NCBI RefSeq assembly: GCF_003072625.1
Contig: NZ_CP027805.1
Span: 1,238,001 to 1,302,000, forward strand
Direction of reading: 5' to 3'
Source: Limosilactobacillus reuteri
GTDB lineage: Bacteria; Bacillota; Bacilli; Lactobacillales; Lactobacillaceae
DNA length: 64,000 bases
Shown here: piece after piece, positions 2,994 to 60,620 of the stretch
How positions within the stretch are numbered: position 1 is the stretch's first letter
Layout of the letters: each line of letters starts with the position of its first letter
Made by a program: the position numbers and the translations under genes
The notes under the pieces: generated by a model
What the model saw: only the letters and a program-made list of their open reading frames with translations
The model's database searches: none
What the model was told of the DNA's origin: nothing

Positions 2994-3061
2994 GCAGTAC
3001 AACAATGGCCTCCAACGTCCGGTTTAAAAACCAAACGCTGGAGGCCTATTGTTGCTTGCGG
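2994..3061. repeat. hairpin repeat, short member of the structured repeat family
   Basis: GCAGTAC (2994-3000) is followed by a long hairpin: AACAAT plus GGCCTCCA (3003-3016) pairs with TGGAGGCC plus ATTGTT (3041-3055), with a single bulged base and an inner GGTTT/AAACC. It is followed by GCTTGC. The same GCAGTAC and GCTTGC borders frame the long repeat at 59651-59842, where the closing stem is AATAAT/ATTATT instead of AACAAT/ATTGTT. A 67-codon open frame over this region is a by-product of the palindrome. Further small hairpins follow to about 3115 (CTTCG..CGAAG and GAAGTC..GACTTC). Confidence 0.7.
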
Positions 3062-3232
3062 GGGCTCCCAGAGGCTAGCTTCGCGTCGAAAAACGAAGTC
3101 ACAAGCGACTTCTGTCTCGCTCCCTTTCCTACGATTAGTCAAGAAAAATATTTAGAAAAGAAGAGTATACTAAACCAACCCGGTTCTTCTTCAAAAATCG
3201 AGAATTAGTGGTATATTAAAATTGTGAGGTGA

Positions 3233-4453
3233 TCATGCCTTCACAGGGACCATTGAGTCCGTATACCGATAGTGGTATTTTTCATGGTGCTTAATCATGG
3301 ATAAGAGACATTTCAGAGTTTTATTCATACAAGCTACCATGGCGACCTTGTTCAGTTTTGGATGAGGTCGTTTTTCTTTTAAACGATAGTAATAGTCAAC
3401 AATATGATTAGAATTAGCGTGTTGTTGGCGGATCATATTACCTACAGTAAAATATAAGAGCTTACGGGCAATCGGATTTCCACGCTTATTAATGTGATCT
3501 TGACCTAAATAGGTTCCAGATTGGTAACGACGAATATCAATTCCGACAAAGGCATTAAGCTGATTAGCATTGTCAAAGCGACTAATGTCGCCCAATTCTC
3601 CCATTAACTGAGCCGCAGTTTGTTTCCCAATTCCCGGAAAAGAGCAGTATAGGATATACTCTGGCAAGCGCTGGGCAATAGATTCCATCCGCTTGATAAC
3701 CTCTTCCTTTTTACGGGTTAGGGCAATTAATTGGCGAGCATAGTAGCGAACTTCATCAACCTGAATGGCATCACCAGAAACAGCCGGATATGATTTTTGG
3801 GCGAGATCGATTAATCGATCGGCATACTTATAAGCTTTCATCTTAGATATTCGTTTATCTGTAGATGCCATTAGAATATTCTTTAATTTAACTCTCGAAT
3901 AAGGCCTAACTAGTGCTGGATGAGGAAAAAGCTCCACGATATTCAACGCTAATTTAGATGTTCTATTTACAAATAATTGCTTAAGTTCTGGAAAAACTTG
4001 TTCAAGTGCAGTATGAAGATGATTTAGACGATAGTTCCAATCAGCGTTGAGCTGATTATAGAACCGACTAAGCTCATGTAGCTGAAGATAATCTTTTTTC
4101 CAAGGAACTGTTAATCGAAAAGTATTTTCCTGGACAGTGAGCGCAATCCGGTGAGCGTCTTTCTGATCGGTCTTAACTCGTCGTAGACTTTCGGACTTTA
4201 AATGAAGTTCTAGTGGATTAAGACGGCAAAAGCGGAGACCATTGGTCTCGCAGAAATGTTCAATTACTCGCGAATAAATTCCAGTCGCTTCAAAGTAGAT
4301 AATTGGCTTCTGAGCTTTCTTAATCATATCTCGTAGAGCATTAACCCCCGCTTTCGTGTGTACTAAAGAAAACTCTTTTAAACAGTGTTTCCCTCGATAC
4401 CAGACACAGTAGCTTTTCCCCATTGAAACATCCAAGGCAAATATATCAGCCAT
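3233..4453 (-). CDS. IS110-family DEDD transposase (bridge-RNA-guided recombinase family)
   Basis: 406 residues, full length for the family. The N-terminal RuvC-like DEDD domain shows D8 (FALDVS), E55 (IYFEATG) and D96/D99 (KTDQKDAHRIA). The C-terminal transposase_20 domain shows SFPGIGKQTAAQLMGELGD followed by a region ending YQSGT, with S312 as the likely catalytic serine. Family knowledge (IS621) says the recombinase uses a non-coding bridge RNA to choose target and donor. No frameshift is present, so the copy looks active. RBS AAAGGAAG lies just upstream of the ATG. Confidence 0.93.
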   Translation of the reverse strand: MADIFALDVSMGKSYCVWYRGKHCLKEFSLVHTKAGVNALRDMIKKAQKPIIYFEATGIYSRVIEHFCETNGLRFCRLNPLELHLKSESLRRVKTDQKDAHRIALTVQENTFRLTVPWKKDYLQLHELSRFYNQLNADWNYRLNHLHTALEQVFPELKQLFVNRTSKLALNIVELFPHPALVRPYSRVKLKNILMASTDKRISKMKAYKYADRLIDLAQKSYPAVSGDAIQVDEVRYYARQLIALTRKKEEVIKRMESIAQRLPEYILYCSFPGIGKQTAAQLMGELGDISRFDNANQLNAFVGIDIRRYQSGTYLGQDHINKRGNPIARKLLYFTVGNMIRQQHANSNHIVDYYYRLKEKRPHPKLNKVAMVACMNKTLKCLLSMIKHHEKYHYRYTDSMVPVKA

Positions 4454-8419: not shown

Positions 8420-9925
8420 TTAGTTTTCAAATGCTTTGATCATCCGGTCAAGCAATTCAATATCTGTATCACAAGAATAGATATCCATGATCTCATAGAT
8501 TTGTGGTGCAGAAGTTGAACCAGTAAAGGCAAGGTTTAATGGGAAGTATAAACCGCGACCCTTAATGCCAGTGTCCTTACCTACTTCCTTAATAGCCTGA
8601 CTGTAATCAAGGTCATCGCCACCGTTTTCAAGTTTTGCCTTTAAGCCCTTGAGAACAGCTAAAACATCTTCATTAGCGAAGTCTTCGTTGTCCTTAAGTA
8701 AGTCATAGTTGAATGATTGGTCAAGAACTGTATAGTATGACCATGCATATTGAATAACTTCAAGAAGCTTATTAACATCCCGCTGGTGAACCTTAATTGT
8801 CTTCTTAAGCAATTCAGTCAATTGTTCTTCTGGAATACTTTGAAGGCGCTTAGCTTCTTCAGTTTCGCCTTCTTTAATTAATTCCATTGTCCGATCAGTT
8901 AATTCATCAATCGACATACTCTTAATGTATTGAGCATTCATCCAATCAAGTTTCTTTTGATCGAAGTAAGCCGGTGCCTTTGACATCCGCTTTGGATCGT
9001 AAGCCTTAATTAACTCTTCTTTAGAGTAAATTTCACGTTCGCCGACTGGAGACCAACCTAAGAATGCAATAAAGTTAAAGATTGCTTCGTGGAGGTAACC
9101 GTGCTTCTTGTATTCACTAATGAATTGAAGGGTATCCTTATCACGCTTACTTAACTTCTTGCGAGTCTTTGGATTAAAGATCAATGGAATGTGACAGAAA
9201 GTTGGGTGTTCCCAGCCTAATGCTTCATAGATAGCAATTTGCTTTGGTGTGTTTGAAATGTGATCAGCACCACGCAAAATATGGGTAATGTCCATAGTGT
9301 GGTCATCAACTACGACGGCAAAATTGTATGTTGGCATTCCATCACTCTTTTCAATAATGAAGTCACCACCAAGGTTGTCAGAGTTAAATGAAACATGACC
9401 ACGTGCAATATCGTCCCATTCGTAATCATGGTCTTTAGGGAAGTGGAAACGAATAGTTGGCTTCAAGCCCTTTGCTTCAGCCGCCTTTTGTTCTTCTTCA
9501 CTCTTACCATACCAACGACCATCATAATGAGGTGGTTCATTGTTAGCCTTTTGCCGTTCACGCATCTCGGCTAACTCTTCCTCTGTTGAGTAATCCTTGT
9601 ATGCAATTCCCTTGTCTAACAATTCTTGAATGTATTTGTGGTAAATACCTTCTTTATTCCGTTCACTTTGACGGTAAGGGGCATACTTTGGATTTAGCTT
9701 ATTTGGACCTTCATTCCAGTCAATTCCTAACCAGTGAAGATTTTCACGTTGGCTAGCTTCACCATCTTCAACGTTCCGTTTGGTGTCGGTATCTTCAATC
9801 CGTAGTACCATCGTTCCATCGAAGTGACGTGCAAATAAATAATTAAATAATGCTGATTGAGCATTTCCGATATGTAAGAAACCTGTTGGGCTAGGTGCAT
9901 ACCGAACTCTGACCTTTTGATCCAT
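8420..9925 (-). CDS. gltX: glutamyl-tRNA synthetase
   Basis: 501 residues, typical for bacterial GluRS. The class I HIGH motif appears as [13 protein letters not shown] near residues 11-23 and the KMSKS-type motif as [13 protein letters not shown] near the middle. It charges tRNA-Glu and, in bacteria lacking GlnRS, mischarges tRNA-Gln for later amidation. It is transcribed alone, next to glnA on the same strand but separated by a strong terminator. Confidence 0.97.
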
Positions 9926-12918: not shown

Positions 12919-13028
12919 GTGGAAACTAGCTTTGTGGCGATGCAAAGCTAATTCCACGTTTTCTTACTATTGTTCGCGAAAATAGTTGAGGCTGAAAGAA
13001 AACATAGTTTTCTCCCAGCCTCTTTTTT
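12919..13028. repeat. structured repeat family member, reverse orientation; also terminator
   Basis: Hairpin GTGGAA plus AGCTTTG (12919-12934) pairs with CAAAGCT plus TTCCAC (12943-12957). Then ACTATT..AATAGT forms a small hairpin, and GAGGCTG..CAGCCTC with inner AAAAC/GTTTT (about 12988-13022) ends in a T run, acting as terminator of the DUF3042 gene. In reverse complement the order GAGGCTGGGAGAAAAC, AACTATTTT, GAACAATAG, ACGTGGAA matches the repeat at 59657-59729 closely, but the final hairpin is short and differs in sequence. The remaining stretch to 13125 shows no gene. Confidence 0.65.
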
Positions 13029-27582: not shown

Positions 27583-27815
27583 AAAAAAGCCTCATCCCAA
27601 GATAGGGACGAGGCTTCGCGGTACCACCCTAGTTTGTAGGAACGAATCCTACACACTCAAATAATCAATAACGGTGATTGGCCGGAATACCATTACGTAT
27701 CAGCTCCGAAAGTGAAATTCGCTTTAGATCACTGATTGCAATTCTCAGCTCATGGTTGCAACTCTCTAACAGGATCGTCTAGCTACTAGCTCTCATCATC
27801 GCTTTTAATTCAATT
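27583..27815 (-). promoter_or_regulatory. T-box riboswitch leader of pheST, tRNA-Phe
   Basis: The - strand carries the classical T-box GGGTGGTACCGCG (27629-27617) followed by the terminator AGCCTCGTCCC (27615-27605) pairing with GGGATGAGGCT (27598-27588) and a T run. The distal Stem I loop (ATGAGCTGAGAATTGC) is visible, and a TTC in GAATTTCAC is the likely Phe specifier. Uncharged tRNA-Phe would favour the antiterminator and allow pheST expression. Confidence 0.93.
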
Positions 27816-34443: not shown

Positions 34444-34569
34444 TCCTATTCAACTCCTCAATAAAAATCCTCATATTTTAGTATCTGTTTTCATTATACC
34501 GCCCTTGGTTTAAAACATCGCTTATTTTGTCAGCCATTTGGAAAACAATTGAATAAAAATGTTTTGTAA

Positions 34570-35643
34570 CGCCGTTTGTAAAATTAAGTTAGAAAATAAG
34601 TTAGAAAAATAGAAAAGCCATTTGTGGTAGACTTTTGAATACCCCTAAACAAAAGAAAGAAAACCACAAATGACTTACACCCATCTTACCACAAACGAGC
34701 TGACAATCATCGCCCATTCTTTCGTGCAAAAGCTTAAAGCGTACCGAGTGGCCCAAATGATCAACCGTTGCGCCGAAACCGTTTATCGCGTTTATCGTTA
34801 CCTGGAAACCGGTGCCTCAATTGCTGATTATCAAGATCACTATATGCGCAATAAGCAACGTTGTGGCCGAAAACGTACTCAGTTGTCACTGGCTGAACTC
34901 ACTTATATCAACGACAAAATTGCCCAGGGGTGGACGCCTGATACCATTATTGGGCGCGCTGAGCGCCCAATTAGTTGTAACCGGCGAACTCTTTACCGGA
35001 TGTTTGAACGTGGCCAGTTCGGCTTCGATGTCCGTTCCAGGTAAGCGGCACCCGAATGACTATGTCGAGCGCCGCGGGAAGGCTGGCCAATTGGGGCGAA
35101 GTATTCACGAGCGTGCCAAGGACTTTCCGCACTATGCCACTGAATTTGGGCACCTTGAAGCTGATACCGTCCAAGGCAAAAAGCACCAAGGGGCGGTAAT
35201 GACCCTGACCGAACGCCAATCGAAGGTCGAAATTGTACTCAATGTGCACGAAAAGACGGCTGATGCGATTAACCAACACTTAAGTCAGTGGCTTCGGAAA
35301 TTCCCGCGGTACTTCTTCAAATCGATTACCTTTGACAACGGAAAAGAATTCGCCGGCTGGCGCGAGATTGCCAATCAATTTGACCTTCACACTTACTTTG
35401 CCGAGGTTGGTGCTCCCAATCAACGAGGGCTGAACGAAAACAACAACGGTCTTTTACGCCGGGATGGCTTAACGAAACAGCTAGATTTCCGCAATCTTCC
35501 TGATGAATTGGTAACCCAACTGATGAGTAAGCGAAATAACCTGCCCCGTAAATCACTAGGCTATCGAACTCCATATGAAGTATTCATGTCTTACGTCACT
35601 GATGAGCAACTATTTTCTTTCTAACTTAAATTGACATTTCGGG
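34570..35643 (+). mobile_element. IS30-family insertion sequence, copy 1 (inactive)
   Basis: 1074 bp. The ends are CGCCGTTTGT... and ...ACATTTCGGG, with imperfect terminal inverted repeats (about 17 of 24 positions match) and a 3-bp target duplication TAA (34567-34569 and 35644-35646). It is almost identical to copy 2 at 57762-58846, apart from a few substitutions and an 11-base deletion. Confidence 0.93.
34670..35624 (+). pseudogene. IS30-family transposase, frameshifted by an 11-bp deletion
   Basis: The N-terminal 121 or so residues read normally (MTYTHLTTNELTIIAHSF..., helix-turn-helix region). After FDVRS eleven bases present in copy 2 (TTGCCGATGCG) are missing at 35038-35040, so the frame shifts and hits a stop at 35044. 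The remaining catalytic domain (HLEADTVQGK, TFDNGKEF, ENNNGLLRRD) is intact in another frame. The product cannot transpose by itself, but the ends could be moved by the intact copy. Confidence 0.93.
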
Positions 35644-35653
35644 TAATAAAAAA

Positions 35654-45818: not shown

Positions 45819-46020
45819 GGCAACGCACCTCCAATTTTTTTAGCGAAAGATCAAGCAAAAAAGCGAGGTACAAAAGTACCCCGCTTAATAACAACGACCT
45901 TATCCTAGTGGTCGATTATCATTCATCTCGTCAGCCCGGCGATCGATATCACCTAGGCGAGAAGCGGGTGCTTCTGCTTTTTCTTTCAACGTTTATTAGC
46001 TTACTAAATTCAAAGTTTAA
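45819..46020 (-). promoter_or_regulatory. infC-rpmI-rplT leader (L20-type autoregulatory leader) with attenuator
   Basis: About 200 untranslated bases precede infC. They contain a strong intrinsic terminator, AGCGGGGTAC pairing with GTACCTCGCT (45886-45861 on the - strand) followed by TTTTTT, and upstream paired segments such as TCGCCTAGGTGATATCGAT with GATCGCCGGG and CGACCACTAGGATAAGGTCG. In Firmicutes this operon is controlled by L20 binding to such a leader. The assignment to the L20 class is by position and terminator, not by a model search. Confidence 0.7.
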
Positions 46021-53829: not shown

Positions 53830-55342
53830 GGCTCTACGTCAAGTAGTGTTGATACGCAGATATGAATCATCGCCAATTAAATTGGTCTAGTTAGAACTGT
53901 CATTCGTGACGGTTCTTTTTAGTTAGTTTGAATTTGGTGGCCAATAATTAAATAAATCCGAGTTTTAAATGCCGTAAAGTAACGATAACCACAGGCAACT
54001 CGTTTGATAGTCTTAATTCGATTATTAATCCCTTCGGTTCGACCATTTGAGAACTTAGTCTCAAAGCCACACTTAATCCCCTCTTTATAACGCGCTAAAA
54101 CCTGGCAACGGTGGATTGTATAATGGCTAACACTGTCTGGCCGAAGTTTAAGTAATTGAAAGAAAGTCGTAAAATCACGTTGATTATAAGCATGCTTCAA
54201 GGATTGGATAAAATTATAGGTGGCTCTTAACTCTTGGTCATACCCTAACATTAAGTCTAAGATTATCATGGAATTAACAACGCGATTAAAATAACGTCCT
54301 TCGTAATACAATTTTGTACTTAAATTTTCTCGATCTTGAAGAAATAGCCGCCAATAATGTTTAAGACGACGAGCTTGTTTCTGCTCCACTGAATCACCTT
54401 TTCGCAAACGGTTAAAAACATGAATTCGCACATGATTCATCGTGTCATTAAGGTGTTTGGCAATATGAAAGCGATCATAAATAATTTGAGCACAGGGAAA
54501 AACCGTTTTAACTAGTTGGTCATAAGCAGCGTTCATATCCATCACCAGATATTTCACTCGGCAACGAGCACGACGTGTAAACTGTTGATAATGTTTAAAT
54601 AAGCTACGTAATCGGCGATCTTCAAGGAGCTCAAATAAGCAACCTCGATCACCATCAACGGCGATAAAACTCATCTTGCCTTTAGCGCTCCGCATTGATT
54701 TAAATTCATCAATACATAATGTTTCCGGTAGATAATTTAAATTTGGTTTATATTGATCGGCGAGGTCCAAAAGGACCCGCTGGACTGAAGCTTCACTGAT
54801 GAATAAGTCATGGGCAATATCTTTAATTGTTTGAATCCGCGTTAATCGAAGAATGATTTCATGCTTTAAATCTCGACTAATTGTCCGTTGATGCTCAAAA
54901 AGATAACTAGTTGCGTTAAATGTTGTATGACAATCAGGACATTGAAAACGTTGAATCTTAACAAGCAACATTAATGGTTGAGCTCTAAATTGTCCATATT
55001 TGTGTTTAGCTTGATAAAAGCCATATTTTAAGATTTGACCACGATTAATGACTCCACAATTTGGACAAGCCCGTGGTGTATAAGAAAGGGTACAGGATAT
55101 TTGTGCCACCCGAACTTTTTTAATTGTTTTATATTTAAGCCAATGATGAGGAAAATTTAAATGAGGGTCTGTTAAATTGAGAAGAGTTCTTGTATCATTA
55201 TCCATGGAGGTTACCTTCTTTACTATGTGATTTGGCGATTTCATTGTATCAGAGGGCGAGCCTCTTTTTTAGTTTAAAAACAAAAATCTGATATTGGTAT
55301 AGAAAGTGATATTTCTATATCAATACCAGATATTGTAGAGCC
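53830..55342 (-). mobile_element. ISL3-family insertion sequence, copy 1
   Basis: 1513 bp. Terminal inverted repeats start GGCTCTAC on each side and stay similar for about 24 bases (GTGTTGAT and GTATTGAT near the inner ends). It is flanked by an exact 8-bp target duplication AGAAAAAC (53822-53829 and 55343-55350), the length expected for ISL3. One intact transposase gene. Confidence 0.95.
53919..55205 (-). CDS. ISL3-family transposase, intact
   Basis: 428 residues from the ATG at 55205 (MDNDTRTLLN), with GAAGG 7 bases upstream. N-terminal zinc finger (CPNCG...CPDC), a helix-turn-helix (TIKDIAHDLFISEASVQRVL) and the DDE domain with D in CIDEFKSM, D in VMDMNAAYDQ and E in GRTEGINNRIKTIKR. All catalytic residues are present, so the element is probably active. 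Confidence 0.95.
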   Translation of the reverse strand: MDNDTRTLLNLTDPHLNFPHHWLKYKTIKKVRVAQISCTLSYTPRACPNCGVINRGQILKYGFYQAKHKYGQFRAQPLMLLVKIQRFQCPDCHTTFNATSYLFEHQRTISRDLKHEIILRLTRIQTIKDIAHDLFISEASVQRVLLDLADQYKPNLNYLPETLCIDEFKSMRSAKGKMSFIAVDGDRGCLFELLEDRRLRSLFKHYQQFTRRARCRVKYLVMDMNAAYDQLVKTVFPCAQIIYDRFHIAKHLNDTMNHVRIHVFNRLRKGDSVEQKQARRLKHYWRLFLQDRENLSTKLYYEGRYFNRVVNSMIILDLMLGYDQELRATYNFIQSLKHAYNQRDFTTFFQLLKLRPDSVSHYTIHRCQVLARYKEGIKCGFETKFSNGRTEGINNRIKTIKRVACGYRYFTAFKTRIYLIIGHQIQTN

Positions 55343-55513
55343 AGAAAAACTTTTGTTTTTCAACAGCCTCTTACTATTTTGCAATATAATAACAAGATAA
55401 CGTGCAAAACAATCACAAGGCTCGAGTCTAAGTACGAACGATAATCAGCCCGTGCCGTGCTAATCATCGTCCTAGCTTAGCCCACCGCCTTGTCGAGAAG
55501 ATTGTTTCACACT
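55343..55513 (+). repeat. long structured repeat, copy A (3' portion)
   Basis: After the target duplication come GTTTTTC..GCCTCTT (right arm of the terminator hairpin), ACTATTTTG, and a large stem: GTGCAAAACAATC (55402-55414) pairs with GATTGTTTCACAC (55500-55512). Inside it CTAAG..CTTAG, ACGAT..ATCGT and CTCGAG/TCGAG extend the fold. The central 85 bases are nearly identical to copy B (59736-59819), but the closing stem differs with matching changes on both sides. Confidence 0.75.
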
Positions 55514-55522
55514 CACTTTCAA

Positions 55523-56236
55523 TTAATTTCGGTCACTCATTCCAAAAATTTGAAGAAGTGAGATGAAGAGGTTTACGAAGTCTAAGTACATTTGAAGGGC
55601 ACCTAGAACAGCTAAACCATTCGTTGATACTTCACCACCATAGTTAATGTAGATTTGCTTCATCTTTTGTGCATCCCAAGCTGTCAAAACAGTAAAGATA
55701 ATAACAGCGATAAAGGAGAAAATGTAAGCAATGGCAGGACTTTGTAAGAACATGTTGATCAGGTAAGCAATCATTAAAGCAATCAAGGCAGCCATTGCGT
55801 GAGCACCAAACTTACTTAAGTCACGCTTAGCAATGGTCCCGTACAAAGCCATCGTGACAAAAACAGCCGCAGATGATACGAAGGCTGAAGCAATGCTTGC
55901 TCCCGAATAAACACCAGCAATAATTGCAAACTCAACACCATAAATTATCGCCGTCAGCATCAGCATAATAAATGCCCCAACTGGGTTCCGCGTAGCACTA
56001 AAGCTTACCCCCATTGACAAAGCAATCGGTAGCAATAAGATAATCCAAACCATTCCAGGGTGAGCACCAAAGAAACCGAAAACAGCACTCCGGAATACCC
56101 CCATGGTCAAGTAAGCACTGAACGCAGAAACAAGAACTGCCAACGTCATGTTTCCATACATTCGGGTCAAGAAACTATTCAAACCAGCTGCGTCAGTGAC
56201 AACCCGACGCCCTGGCTCTTGAGAAAAGTTATTCAT
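55523..56236 (-). CDS. Bax inhibitor-1/YccA family membrane protein
   Basis: 237 residues from the ATG at 56236 (MNNFSQEPGRRV), seven bases after GAGGGAG. Seven membrane helices, with the family end FTVLTAWDAQKMKQIY and the acidic calcium or proton sensor DFVNLFISLLQIFG. BI-1 members form pH-sensitive calcium leak channels. It is downstream of murC behind a small terminator (56284-56308). Confidence 0.94.
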   Translation of the reverse strand: MNNFSQEPGRRVVTDAAGLNSFLTRMYGNMTLAVLVSAFSAYLTMGVFRSAVFGFFGAHPGMVWIILLLPIALSMGVSFSATRNPVGAFIMLMLTAIIYGVEFAIIAGVYSGASIASAFVSSAAVFVTMALYGTIAKRDLSKFGAHAMAALIALMIAYLINMFLQSPAIAYIFSFIAVIIFTVLTAWDAQKMKQIYINYGGEVSTNGLAVLGALQMYLDFVNLFISLLQIFGMSDRN

Positions 56237-56283
56237 CAAGACTCCCTCTTTCTATTTAATTTGACTTTATTTGACTAATTATA

Positions 56284-56308
56284 AAAATGGTAGCAGAGGC
56301 CACCATTT
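56284..56308 (-). terminator. intrinsic terminator of murC
   Basis: On the - strand AAATGGT pairs with ACCATTT around GGCCTCTGCT and is followed by T residues. Confidence 0.7.
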
Positions 56309-56327
56309 CATTCAAGTAAATCTTTAA

Positions 56328-57632
56328 TTATTTTAACAATTTTTTGTACTTTTCTTCGTATTTTTCAACGTCACCGGCACCCATAAAAACAACTACTGCA
56401 TTATGGTATTGCAAAAGTTTGTCCATGGTATCCATGTCGATACCTTCACTACCTTCAATCCGTTGCTCCAAATCGGCACTAGAAACATTTCCAGCATTTT
56501 CACGAATTGAACCAAAGATTGGGGTAACAAAAGTCTTATCTGCCCGGCTAAGTGATTCCGCAAAGCCATCGATATAAGCGGCCAATCGTGAGTATGTGTG
56601 CGGTTGGAAAACAGCGATAACTTCACGATCTGGGTACTTCTGCCGTGCCGCATCAATTGTTGCTTTAATTTCGCTTGGGTGGTGAGCATAGTCATCAATA
56701 ATGGTCGTATCCGCAACATCAGTCTCGCTGAAACGACGCTTTACCCCACTAAAGTTGGCTAGTTCTTGTTGAATCTCATCCATATTCATGTGTTCCATGT
56801 AAGCAACTGCTAGCACTGCTAAGCTATTAAGGACACTGTGTTCACCGTATAAGTGAATAGTGAATGTGCCAAGCTTTTGGTCGCGGAAGTATGCATCATA
56901 CGTTGAGCCTTCTGGTGTCCGTTGAATATTTTCTGCCCGGAAATCATCATCTGGGTTAGTTCCATAGTAGTAAACCGGAACACCAACGTTTAAGTCACGA
57001 AGACTAGGATCATCGCCCCAAGCAAAAATTGCCCGTTGAACTTGCTTACCGTACGTTTCAAATGAATCGCGGACATCTGCCAAATCGTTGAAGTAATCAG
57101 GGTGATCAAAGTCAACGTTCGTCATAATTGCATAGTCTGGGTGATAAGCAAGGAAGTGATCACGGTATTCATCAGCTTCAAAAACAAAGAAGCGTGCGTC
57201 CGTATTTCCCTTCCCTACCCCATCACCGATCAAGTAGCTGGTTGGTTCTACCGCTGCTAATACGTGTGATAACAATGCAGTCGTACTGGTCTTCCCGTGT
57301 GCTCCGGCAATCCCAATACTAGTATAGTTCTTAACCTCATTTTCAACAGCCTCAGGGTAACTTAAAATTTTAAGGCCTAATTCATGTGCTCGTTTAATCT
57401 CTGGGTGATCATCATCAAAAGCGTTTCCTTGGATAACAATCATCCCCGGTTTCAAATTGGCTGGATCAAATGGCAAAATTTTAATTCCCGCCGCTAACAA
57501 TGGCGCTTGTGTAAATGTTTCCTTTTCAATATCTGAACCTAGTACTTGGTGTCCTTTGTCATGAAGGATACGTGCTAAAGAGGCCATCCCGGTCCCTTTA
57601 ATACCAACAAAGTAATATGTATTTTGTTCCAT
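56328..57632 (-). CDS. murC: UDP-N-acetylmuramate--L-alanine ligase
   Basis: 434 residues from the ATG at 57632 ([12 protein letters not shown]), with AAAGGA upstream. Nucleotide motifs: [11 protein letters not shown] (UDP-MurNAc site), [15 protein letters not shown] (ATP P-loop), [11 protein letters not shown], and [14 protein letters not shown]. It adds the first alanine of the peptidoglycan stem peptide. The upstream region contains a hairpin and then an IS30 copy. Confidence 0.97.
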
Positions 57633-57668
57633 CAATCCAATTCCTTTCAACAATTCAATTTAAAATAA

Positions 57669-57707
57669 GTGCGAGGGATAGATCAGCAACTATGATCCAT
57701 CCCTCAC
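57669..57707 (-). terminator. strong hairpin upstream of murC, possible orphaned terminator
   Basis: GTG.GAGGGAT.GATC pairs with GATC.ATCCCTCAC around a short loop. No - strand gene now lies upstream except the IS30 element, so it may be the terminator of a gene left beyond the insertion or a murC leader structure. The U tract after it on the - strand is weak. Confidence 0.45.
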
Positions 57708-57761
57708 TAAATAATAAAGCATTATAAAATTTTGGCAATAGTAATCAGCTGTTTTTTATTA

Positions 57762-58846
57762 CGCCGTTTGTAAAATTAAGTTAGAAAATAAGTTAGAAAA
57801 ATAGAAAAGCCATTTGTGGTAGACTTTTGAATACCCCTAAACAAAAGAAAGGAAACCACAAATGACTTACACCCATCTTACCACAAACGAGCTGACAATC
57901 ATCGCCCATTCTTTCGTGCAAAAGCTTAAAGCGTACCGAGTGGCCCGAATGATCAACCGTTGCGCCGAAACCGTTTATCGCGTTTATCGTTACCTGGAAA
58001 CCGGTGCCTCAATTGCTGATTATCAAGATCACTATATGCGCAATAAGCAACGTTGTGGCCGAAAACGTACTCAGTTGTCACTGGCTGAACTCACTTATAT
58101 CAACGACAAAATTGCCCAGGGGTGGACGCCTGATACCATTATTGGGCGCGCTGAGCGCCCAATTAGTTGTAACCGGCGAACTCTTTACCGGATGTTTGAA
58201 CGTGGCCAGTTCGGCTTCGATGTCCGTTCCTTGCCGATGCGAGGTAAGCGGCACCCGAATGGCTATGTCGAGCGCCGCGGGAAGGCTGGCCAATTGGGGC
58301 GAAGTATTCACGAGCGTGCCAAGGACTTTCCGCACTATGCCACTGAATTTGGGCACCTTGAAGCTGATACCGTCCAAGGCAAAAAGCACCAAGGGGCGGT
58401 AATGACCCTGACCGAACGCCAATCGAAGGTCGAAATTGTACTCAATGTGCACGAAAAGACGGCTGATGCGATTAACCAACACTTAAGTCAGTGGCTTCGG
58501 AAATTCCCGCGGTACTTCTTCAAATCGATTACCTTTGACAACGGAAAAGAATTCGCCGGCTGGCGCGAGATTGCCAATCAATTTGACCTTCACACTTACT
58601 TTGCCGAGGTTGGTGCTCCCAATCAACGAGGGCTGAACGAAAACAACAACGGTCTTTTACGCCGGGATGGCTTAACGAAACAGCTAGATTTCCGCAATCT
58701 TCCTGATGAATTGGTAACCCAACTGATGAGTAAGCGAAATAACCTGCCCCGTAAATCACTAGGCTATCGAACTCCATATGAAGTATTCATGTCTTACGTC
58801 ACTGATGAGCAACTATTTTCTTTCTAACTTAAATTGACATTTCGGG
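57762..58846 (+). mobile_element. IS30-family insertion sequence, copy 2 (intact)
   Basis: 1085 bp with the same ends as copy 1 (CGCCG... and ...TCGGG) and a 3-bp target duplication TTA (57759-57761 and 58847-58849). It differs from copy 1 by having the 11 bases missing there and by a few substitutions (for example an Arg codon where copy 1 has Gln near 57945). The near identity implies recent movement. Confidence 0.95.
57862..58827 (+). CDS. IS30-family transposase, intact
   Basis: 321 residues. N-terminal helix-turn-helix (residues 1-60, LTIIAHSFVQKLKAYRVARM), then the DDE catalytic core with D in HLEADTVQGK, D in TFDNGKEF and E in ENNNGLLRRDGL. The ATG follows GAAAGGAAACCACAA. It could mobilise the defective copy at 34570. 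Confidence 0.95.
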   Translation: MTYTHLTTNELTIIAHSFVQKLKAYRVARMINRCAETVYRVYRYLETGASIADYQDHYMRNKQRCGRKRTQLSLAELTYINDKIAQGWTPDTIIGRAERPISCNRRTLYRMFERGQFGFDVRSLPMRGKRHPNGYVERRGKAGQLGRSIHERAKDFPHYATEFGHLEADTVQGKKHQGAVMTLTERQSKVEIVLNVHEKTADAINQHLSQWLRKFPRYFFKSITFDNGKEFAGWREIANQFDLHTYFAEVGAPNQRGLNENNNGLLRRDGLTKQLDFRNLPDELVTQLMSKRNNLPRKSLGYRTPYEVFMSYVTDEQLFSF

Positions 58847-58934
58847 TTAGTTTTCTGGGTAAGAAATTTTTCTTCTTTTATTATAAAACTAGTATTTTAC
58901 AAATTTATCTCCATAGATATTTGTTACAAAATAA

Positions 58935-58952
58935 TGTACAATATTAAGTACA
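58935..58952. promoter_or_regulatory. palindromic operator candidate of the toxin-antitoxin operon
   Basis: TGTACAATATTAAGTACA has TGTAC/GTACA arms and an AT-rich centre, and overlaps a -10-like TACAAT, 24 bases before the antitoxin ATG. Phd-family antitoxins usually bind such palindromes to repress their own operon. Confidence 0.55.
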
Positions 58953-58975
58953 AAAAGAAGCAAGGATGTGATTAT

Positions 58976-59269
58976 ATGCCAATTGCTACTACTCAAAGTG
59001 ACTTCAGAAAACATATCAAGGATTACCTTGATCGAGTTAATGAAGACGAGCAAACTGTCTTAGTTGCCCGTTCAAACCAACGAACAGCTGCAATCATCTC
59101 CCAAAACCAATTGAATGCATTGCTTGATGCTGTAAATGCTAAGGAAGATTCATTAGACTATGCTATTGCAAGAGATAAATTAATTGACATGCATATTATT
59201 CCAGATGATCCTATTATTGACTCCAATGACAATTACTGGAATCAATTCAAGAATAGTGAGGAAAAGTAG
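58976..59269 (+). CDS. Phd/YefM-family antitoxin
   Basis: 97 residues from the ATG at 58976 (MPIATTQSDF), with AAGGATG upstream; an earlier frame start is not supported. The N-terminal DNA-binding fold is recognisable (SDFRKHIKDYLDRVNEDEQTVLVARSNQRTAAIISQNQLNAL) and the C-terminal half is acidic, as needed to wrap the toxin. It would neutralise the YafQ-like toxin encoded three bases downstream and repress the operon. Confidence 0.85.
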   Translation: MPIATTQSDFRKHIKDYLDRVNEDEQTVLVARSNQRTAAIISQNQLNALLDAVNAKEDSLDYAIARDKLIDMHIIPDDPIIDSNDNYWNQFKNSEEK

Positions 59270-59272
59270 GTC

Positions 59273-59599
59273 ATGTCTTATTACTCTTTTCGGCCACGTA
59301 AAACATTTAATGCTGACTTAGCATGCCTTGGTAAATTAGACTCATCAATTATTGATGACATCCATGAGGCCATTGATATTTTACTCAATGGCGATACTCT
59401 CCCCAAAGAATATAGGGATCACCACTTACAAAGAAAATATGCTGGTTACAGAGAATTTCATGTCAGGGATACTCCCAAAGGCGCAAAACCTACGAAAACC
59501 AATGATGTTCTAGTAATCTATAAGATTGACCACCAAGATCTTGTATTAGCTGCTGTACGAGCAGGTTCTCACAATAATCTTTTTAATAAGTCATATTGA
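59273..59599 (+). CDS. YafQ/RelE-family mRNA interferase toxin
   Basis: 108 residues. The family pattern is LPKEYRDHHLQRKYAGYREFHV and NDVLVIYKIDHQDLVLAAVRAGSHNNLF, with the conserved His and Arg residues near the C-terminus that carry out mRNA cleavage on the ribosome. It follows the antitoxin by three bases in one transcript. The pair sits immediately after an IS30 copy, which may mean it arrived or was rearranged with it. Confidence 0.87.
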   Translation: MSYYSFRPRKTFNADLACLGKLDSSIIDDIHEAIDILLNGDTLPKEYRDHHLQRKYAGYREFHVRDTPKGAKPTKTNDVLVIYKIDHQDLVLAAVRAGSHNNLFNKSY

Positions 59600-59650
59600 A
59601 AAAACAAATAAGTTTTCGCAAGTCAAAGATAAACATCACAATCGCAGTAC

Positions 59651-59842
59651 AATAATGAGGCTGGGAGAAAACAAAAGTTTCCTCTCAGCCTCAACTACTT
59701 TTATGAACAATAGAAAGATAACGTGGAAAATAACCACAAGGCTCGAGTCTAAGTACGAACGATAATCAGCCGTGCCGTGCTAATCATCGTCCTAGCTTAG
59801 CCAACCGCTTTGTCGAGGAGGTTATTTCCCACTCTCATTATT
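59651..59842. repeat. long structured repeat, copy B (complete)
   Basis: Between GCAGTAC (59644-59650) and GCTTGC (59843-59848) the outer stem AATAATGAG (59651-59659) pairs exactly with CTCATTATT (59834-59842). Inside are a terminator-type hairpin GAGGCTGGGAG..CTCTCAGCCTC (59657-59692) and a large stem GTGGAAAATAACC (59723-59735) with GGTTATTTCCCAC (59820-59832) enclosing CTAAG..CTTAG and ACGAT..ATCGT arms. The terminator half also serves the toxin gene. No coding frame spans it. Confidence 0.8.
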
Positions 59843-59892
59843 GCTTGCAGGGGCTTGCGTCGCTCCCATCAAAAGCACTTATCGCTTTTTTG

Positions 59893-60540
59893 TTAGTTTT
59901 CTAGATAGAACGTATCAGCCTTGGCAAAATCAACTGGTTCACCGACTTCTTGCCAATCATTAGGGATAATGAACAAACCCTTTTCATCAGGAGCGTTCTT
60001 AATCCGTAGTTCACGGAAACCACAAAGCATGCCGTCACTATCGACACCCATCAACTGACCAGGCCAAATGATCTTACCATCTGGCATCATCGCACCAGGA
60101 CGAGCAACTACGACTTTAATACCTTCTGCAACATTAGGAGATCCACACACGATCTGGACAGTCTTATCAGCAGCAATCCGTGTTTGCGTCACCTTTAAGT
60201 GGTCAGACTTAGGATGGTCAGTGATCTTTTCAACATAGCCAACCACAAACTTAGGATCTTCGTCAGCTGTTAAGAGCTTATCGAAGCCCGCTTCTTGTAA
60301 CTTTGCATTTAATTTTTCAACTTGAGCGGCATCTAAAAATACTTGCCCGTTTTCACTTGTTAATTCTGGTAAGATCTTGCTGGCGTTCATAAAGTTATAG
60401 CCAAGTAATGCACCATCTTTTGCAGCGGTGATCTGAGCTACATCATCAGCAATCTTAGTAATTTGGTCATCCGCATCTGGAGCGGTAATAACGACTAAAA
60501 TGTCGCCTAATTCATTGGGATTGTAACTTGAAATTAACAT
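59893..60540 (-). CDS. ytpR: YtpR family tRNA-binding (EMAP/OB-fold) protein
   Basis: 215 residues from the ATG at 60540 (MLISSYNPNE), with GAGG 8 bases upstream. The N-terminal 90 residues match the DUF4479 domain; residues about 97-205 form an OB-fold like the N-terminal domain of PheT (HPKSDHLKVTQTRI, QIVCGSPNVAEGIKVVVA, MGVDSDGMLCGFRELRI). Free-standing YtpR proteins bind tRNA or act in stress response; the partner is unknown. Downstream of a thioredoxin gene with a hairpin between. Confidence 0.93.
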   Translation of the reverse strand: MLISSYNPNELGDILVVITAPDADDQITKIADDVAQITAAKDGALLGYNFMNASKILPELTSENGQVFLDAAQVEKLNAKLQEAGFDKLLTADEDPKFVVGYVEKITDHPKSDHLKVTQTRIAADKTVQIVCGSPNVAEGIKVVVARPGAMMPDGKIIWPGQLMGVDSDGMLCGFRELRIKNAPDEKGLFIIPNDWQEVGEPVDFAKADTFYLEN

Positions 60541-60620
60541 CAAATATTCCTCTCTCTAATATAATCTACTATTTTACATTATTACATAAAAAGAAGACTA
60601 TGAAAATCTAATTTAAAACT

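Follow-up and report, generated by a model that had tools for sequence, protein, structure and literature searches.

A high-copy repeat of Limosilactobacillus with a fold conserved on one strand, found at native stem-loops

A 64,000-nucleotide stretch of the Limosilactobacillus reuteri chromosome (NZ_CP027805.1, positions 1,238,001 to 1,302,000 of assembly GCF_003072625.1; here called the window) holds two similar structured repeats, copies A and B, that raise the question of whether they represent a mobile element, a functional RNA, or both. A preliminary description of the same DNA, made from its letters, had proposed a mobile hairpin, or else an RNA that depends on its fold, joined to a modular terminator. 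The analysis reported here indicates that the element is probably a mobile repeat of the EFAR/BOX kind, non-autonomous and present in many copies, with selection acting on its single-strand fold. It stands as an interspersed unit composed of a folded core, a spacer and a terminator-like hairpin, with its core 5′-end often placed directly past a stop codon. The parts of the two copies, scored where indicated with R1, a structure model built from six copies, are as follows.

55396–55514, minus strand: 119-nt core of copy A, four stacked helices (R1 score 139.3 bits)
55371–55395, minus strand: spacer of copy A, lined up with other copies
55338–55370, minus strand: terminator-like hairpin of copy A, GAGGCTGTTGAAAAAC type, read from the letters
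59717–59834, minus strand: core of copy B (R1 score 132.3 bits)
59693–59716, minus strand: spacer of copy B, from alignment with other copies
59657–59692, minus strand: terminator-like hairpin of copy B, GAGGCTGAGAG type, read from the letters
59644–59656, no strand assigned: GCAGTACAATAAT, probable retained arm of a native stem-loop; its CAATAAT pairs with ATTATTG at 59837–59843
59837–59848, no strand assigned: ATTATTGCTTGC, second probable native stem-loop arm, flanking copy B

A fold conserved on one strand

The core is approximately 119 nt long and reads, from its 5′-end, GAGTGGG..., helix P1 (whose arms are inverted repeats of 12–13 bp), a bulge, P2, an internal loop, P3, an internal loop with CTA opposite GTA, P4, and a 3′-end in ...CACGTTATC. 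With spacer and hairpin, the whole unit measures about 175–190 nt in the copies of the window's own genome, where two core subtypes occur, each with its own type of hairpin. In both window copies the folded strand is the minus strand. Their closing stems differ just as the preliminary description had read them, with AAACAATC/GATTGTTT in one and AAATAACC/GGTTATTT in the other, two positions being changed on both sides. In the own-genome alignment of six copies (A1), 4 of 43 pairs show a change in both partners, against a shuffled mean of 1.1 and with none of 500 shuffles as high.

The compensatory changes claimed from these stems extend across the genus. A larger alignment, A4, was made with MAFFT from 73 copies (68 distinct), and a structure of 39 pairs was derived from it with RNAalifold. 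It comprises 73 of the 109 best-strand matches (54 of 65 plus 19 of 44); among those omitted are copies with a 3′ insertion, matches that are weak or incomplete, and repeated instances of one site. Among the 68 distinct copies, standard pairs fill 97.7% of 2630 cells and 32 of the 39 pairs show change on both sides, a number reached in none of 500 shuffles, although these copies were gathered by a structure-aware model from six copies, which biases the set towards pairing. Shuffled alignments average 78.5% paired cells and 22.0 double-change pairs, and partners slid out of register give 34–45% and 8–18. Removing two loci (L059, L078) from G018, an assembly discussed below, leaves 66 rows with 2492 of 2552 cells standard and the same 32 double-change pairs. 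A second set of 19 rows (18 distinct) was retrieved by a pattern of sequence alone and then positioned with R1; P1 and P2 lie outside that pattern. In these 18 rows 665 of 690 cells are standard and 20 pairs covary overall; for P1 and P2, 337 of 342 cells are paired and 11 of 19 pairs covary, compared with 116–164 of 342 cells and 1–3 pairs in the slid controls.

The folded strand can also be told from its opposite. In A4, G·U cells outnumber A·C cells by 210 to 10, which indicates that one strand is the folded one, and the RNAalifold energy is −55.6 kcal/mol for that strand and −33.3 kcal/mol for its complement. Unpaired letters are conserved in the CTA/GTA loop that separates P3 from P4 and in four columns of the one between P2 and P3. 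A candidate pseudoknot (CTCGA/TCGAG) was dropped because its complement, as judged by eye, is lost in the subtype that has ACTA in the loop. The fold is thus strongly conserved, and on one strand only. Because it is conserved through large change in sequence, the fold itself is probably the feature on which movement depends, in a class of small bacterial repeats that are usually defined by sequence.

Insertion at native stem-loops and beside stop codons

At five sites one genome carries a copy that a relative lacks:

L010, occupied; L181, empty
L189, occupied; L208 and L206, empty
L182, occupied; L225 and L226, empty
L165 at 13405, occupied; L276, empty
L117 at 6245, occupied; L124, empty

These supply the comparison of orthologous sites for presence or absence that the preliminary description had called for. 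The empty alleles hold a native palindrome, which in all but one case follows a stop codon. In the occupied alleles, core and hairpin replace this palindrome or stand at its base, and the apex of the native hairpin is altered or replaced. These comparisons show insertion at native stem-loops. Hairpins are subtype-specific and are changed in occupied alleles, and in the reuteri group the unit apparently carries its hairpin along. The one-strand fold, the presence or absence at orthologous sites and the hairpin that seems to move together with the core support the earlier proposal in part.

Flanking sequences point in the same direction outside G008, the most match-rich genome. Across 92 copies, a set that excludes G008 and G018, left and right flanks of the same copy pair better with each other than with mismatched partners (mean −8.38 versus −7.28 kcal/mol, 0 of 5000 permutations), and the own right flank is among the best 5% of partners for 12 of the 92. 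The effect persists in 87 copies after removal of near-identical flanks (again 0 of 5000). The preliminary description had taken the outer borders of copy B, AATAAT/ATTATT, for covarying parts of the element; they look more like a feature of the target site, most plausibly arms left from the native stem-loop into which that copy inserted, which differ from site to site.

The second regularity of placement concerns genes. In G008, 40 of 78 clusters begin −2 to 10 nt from a stop codon (stop-to-stop frames of at least 100 codons); in controls with a 60-codon limit, 176 of 4000 random positions and 3 of 78 opposite edges on the other strand do so. Outside G008, 45 of 95 unique copies begin −2 to 14 nt from a stop codon (60 codons), compared with 57 of 1900 random positions and 4 of 92 opposite edges on the other strand; 37 of 132 entries had been removed from this test as duplicates, as belonging to G008 or G018, or as lying near an end. 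The 3′-end of the core faces a terminator-like hairpin in most copies inspected by eye, sometimes past extra units or stubs. Hairpins of the same type are also found alone, without a core.

Such a setting invites the reading of the element as a functional 3′ untranslated region that would form part of the upstream gene's transcript, stabilise the 3′-end of the mRNA or serve as a protein-binding site, and be selected site by site. In about half of the copies the folded strand coincides with the mRNA strand and begins directly after the stop codon; a terminator-like hairpin comes next in the copies inspected; and letters of the internal loops are conserved. Nevertheless, amplification is lineage-specific, tandem arrays and 5′ stubs occur, relatives have empty sites, and the fold is kept equally well away from stop codons: in G008, Watson-Crick pairing is 0.797 both in 50 stop-adjacent and in 44 non-adjacent units, a comparison that uses a model-fitted alignment and whose non-adjacent class includes some miscalled stop-adjacent copies. 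We consider this reading quite unlikely.

Gene conversion or template switching among similar terminator hairpins, with no transposase involved, would account for hairpins of the same type occurring with and without a core and for the changed or replaced apices in occupied alleles, and it fits the finding, detailed below, that neither reverse transcriptase nor Y1 transposase is common to the carriers. Yet the G008 copies adjoin many different terminator sequences (by eye, in printed clusters), and such a process would not by itself need a conserved core fold. It seems unlikely, if slightly easier to entertain than a 3′ untranslated region.

Distribution, truncated copies and proposed mode of movement

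The own genome (2.04 Mb) contains 14 copies, comprising 13 strong R1 matches and locus L049; the remaining 12 of its 26 R1 rows are weak reverse-strand shadows of the same places. R1 matches (E up to 0.001) are present in 20 of the 33 genomes sampled from the genus and in none of 23 other genomes of the order. G008 has at least 137 matches among the best 150 of 493 candidates scored. Stretches of that genome totalling 400 kb of 1.89 Mb contain 94 matches, none overlapping, at a density not representative of the whole since the stretches were chosen as copy-rich; here units are also found in tandem, head to tail, at a spacing of 120–124 bp. A 26-position pattern applied to one genome per species for 84,980 species matched 42 stretches, all 42 of which are also matched by R1; 37 are named Limosilactobacillus and five are titled Lactobacillus sp. 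(one isolate and one metagenome-assembled genome), which we take to be Limosilactobacillus as well. Among rows assigned to a genome, mean identity between copies is 0.82–0.98 inside genomes and 0.66 between them. The flanks of the own-genome copies match L. reuteri, L. balticus and L. agrestis records at 91–97%.

The exact pattern had no match in viral contigs, and blastn gave none in phages. Three plasmid records carry the element, all from L. fermentum. The records CP033372 (760 kb) and CP033373 (252 kb) have it at 10 and 2 places, and their size suggests that they are pieces of chromosome. One assembly, G018, looks like an artificial concatenation of gene features, all but two of the called open reading frames in eight stretches being on one strand and mostly butted end to end. 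Its loci (L059, L078, L171–L178) were excluded from the stop-adjacency and flank-pairing tests, and its pairs (L007/L177, L007/L178, L008/L176, L001/L176, L009/L174, L090/L173 and the L172 views) were disregarded in the site comparisons; it is counted among the 20 carriers and among the 19 carriers screened for reverse transcriptase and Y1 transposase.

Truncated copies appear to be polar. Outside full units, the 400 kb of G008 contain 52 matches of the 5′-end motif and 5 of the 3′-end motif, a count made without a chance expectation and with motifs of unequal stringency (they find 58 and 70 places inside full units). The fixed 5′-end, the head-to-tail arrays and the many 5′ but few 3′ stubs suggest a transfer of a single strand, 5′-end first. 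In the mechanism that we favour, one strand, as single-stranded DNA or RNA, would be the moving form and would be recognised through its fold by an enzyme supplied in trans. In the reuteri group the core would carry its spacer and its own terminator-like hairpin along, and new copies would land within an intrinsic terminator's stem-loop or at its base, often directly past a stop codon, with the core 3′-end oriented towards the hairpin. Arms of the native stem could stay behind as flanks. The 5′-end would probably be joined first at the target, so that incomplete transfer would leave 3′ truncations.

Several observations weigh against this explanation. Besides the unequal stringency of the end motifs, some of the 52 matches of the 5′ motif are chance occurrences in genes, and three of the five 3′ matches only abut another unit. 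About half of the copies are not beside a called stop codon. In G008 (72 clusters) the flanks are not complementary, with 4806 of 5000 permutations as low, so that retained arms are not universal. No clear target-site duplication was seen in the five occupied and empty comparisons, only short A-rich repeats by eye. At three own-genome sites relatives carry a copy as well (L003 in L112 and L187, L004 in L118 and L079, L005 in L129), so that current movement can only be presumed. Finally, no autonomous partner was found for the element: RVT_1 was undetected in 13 of 19 sampled carriers and Y1_Tnp in 5 of 19 (G003, G006, G011, G020, G022), some of the assemblies being incomplete.

A reverse transcriptase or a Y1 transposase as the general mover is therefore unsupported, each being undetected in several carriers, unless it was later lost there or escaped detection. 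G008 itself has 15 Y1_Tnp matches and no RVT_1 match. Retroposition of an RNA, in the manner of a short interspersed nuclear element, would agree with a strand-specific fold, polar truncation and many copies. Nonetheless, RVT_1 has no match in G008 or in the 13 carriers just mentioned, and the folded strand is truncated at its 3′-end, which is opposite to the outcome of target-primed reverse transcription of that strand; retroposition is very improbable. In the G000 genome, 22 RVT_1 matches of similar score, mostly in 473-amino-acid frames, represent a multicopy reverse transcriptase, perhaps that of a group II intron. Separately, the gene that lies between the units at 8957 and 10151 of L165 in G008 is missing in G009, which is the closest relative of G008 in the sample and has no R1 match.

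A further model, R2, built from A4, was run over 295 genomes of the order and matched in G000, G240 and G243 only, in an insensitive search that considered the best 12 candidates or fewer per genome. G240, from another family, has three matches, and the other four of the five genomes of its genus have none; one of its places holds three tandem units, the last incomplete, the first starting inside a stop codon. G243, from another genus of the same family, has a single match that starts 6 nt after a stop codon. Both have the same architecture with different helices; their 5′-ends retain GAG(T/C)G and their 3′-ends C(A/G)CGTT. G240 does not keep the CTA/GTA loop, and G243 keeps it as CTAG/CGTA. 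Only tentatively would we propose an order-wide superfamily, recognised by fold and not by sequence, that is moved as one strand by an enzyme other than a reverse transcriptase or Y1 transposase.

Within the window, the repeats have further relatives:

12919–12957, plus strand: miniature member (L015), with outer ends present, inner helices gone and a CTAGCTTTG...CAAAGCTA module in their place
12988–13022, plus strand: terminator-like hairpin of the miniature member, followed by T6, read from the letters
2994–3059, plus strand: uninterrupted palindrome in a GCAGTAC/GCTTGC frame, the same as in the flanks of copy B

The miniature member had been described as a reversed relative that keeps spacer and terminator arm and ends in a different hairpin. 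Its orientation is indeed opposite to that of copies A and B, and spacer, hairpin and ends are kept; the difference lies in the loss of the inner helices. The border pair reported at 3003 and 3050 exists as well, two positions away (AACAAT at 3001–3006, ATTGTT at 3048–3053). The sequence GCAGTACAAYAATG has two exact matches in the window and three with two mismatches (chance expectation 1.13). Some copies carry a 3′ insertion, and since its letters, CGACGCGAAGCTAGCC, recur reverse-complemented at 3073–3088, beside the palindrome, the repeats are mosaic. A 16-nt module is common to the sequence neighbouring the palindrome and to the element's inserted forms. Positions 2994–3100, with the palindrome between GCAGTAC and GCTTGCGGGGGCT, constitute a second possible repeat, which adjoins an IS110-family transposase gene (3233–4453, minus).

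As for the neighbourhood of the two copies, the core of copy A begins 8 nt past the stop codon of a Bax1-I family gene (55523–56239, minus), and an ISL3-family transposase gene (53919–55244, minus) adjoins its hairpin. Copy B is flanked by convergent genes, a YafQ-type toxin gene (59273–59599, plus) and a tRNA_bind gene (59893–60543, minus). An insertion sequence with inverted ends is present in two near-identical copies (57754–58850 and 34562–35651), one of them 0.8 kb from copy B; it is tentatively taken to be IS30-like, and Pfam gives it only weak matches, to rve and HTH_38.

Comparison with known repeats

The preliminary description knew no named family that fits, and the element indeed has no Rfam match at gathering score. 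At that score the window yields only a T-box (27601–27808) and an L20 leader (45849–45985), both on the minus strand and away from the element; near copy B, sub-threshold matches to psbM 3′UTR (E 0.45) and mir-7359 (E 0.88) fall over the terminator hairpin. A literature search of open-licence PubMed Central (PMC) papers found no description of the element, and a review of miniature inverted-repeat transposable elements (MITEs) mentions, in the excerpts available, neither EFAR nor lactobacilli (PMC10969869).

REP elements are tied to Y1 RAYT transposases, whereas Y1_Tnp was undetected in 5 of 19 carriers here. They are also 20–40 bp palindromes with a GTAG/CGTC tag, while the present core, at 119 nt, is not of this form. 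The resemblance to REP is in being palindromic and near coding regions, where, according to excerpts of one survey, palindromic repeats occur and REP termini can supply the stop codon (PMC3733652).

In their working, the most similar repeats seem to be EFAR/Efa-1 and BOX/SPRITE. BOX, RUP and SPRITE of Streptococcus pneumoniae are, like the present family, interspersed repeats that fold; the excerpted account has its authors calling them parasitic elements, describes SPRITE as terminator-like, and links BOX and RUP to the terminal repeats of ISSpn2 and IS630-Spn1 (PMC3049150).

As described in part of one report, Efa-1 of Enterococcus is 163 nt long, has 65 copies and forms an adjacent pair of stem-loops (PMC2267715), and EFAR figures among bacterial MITEs in the excerpted survey (PMC3733652). 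Compared by description and not by sequence, the Limosilactobacillus element is like EFAR in its two adjacent stem-loops, similar total length and intergenic position. EFAR elements target stem-loops, parts of which stay at their ends, and Efa-1 is presumably the same family. The present element resembles them in this respect too, inserting into stem-loops and leaving parts of the target stem, as seen at the five sites and in the flanks of the 92 copies, although not in G008. The element also shows covariation specific to one strand, adjacency to stop codons and tandem cores, none of which is known as a feature of EFAR. Abundant in some gut lactobacilli and placed at the 3′-ends of genes, where it may shape transcription termination, the family offers a route to the mover of EFAR-like repeats.

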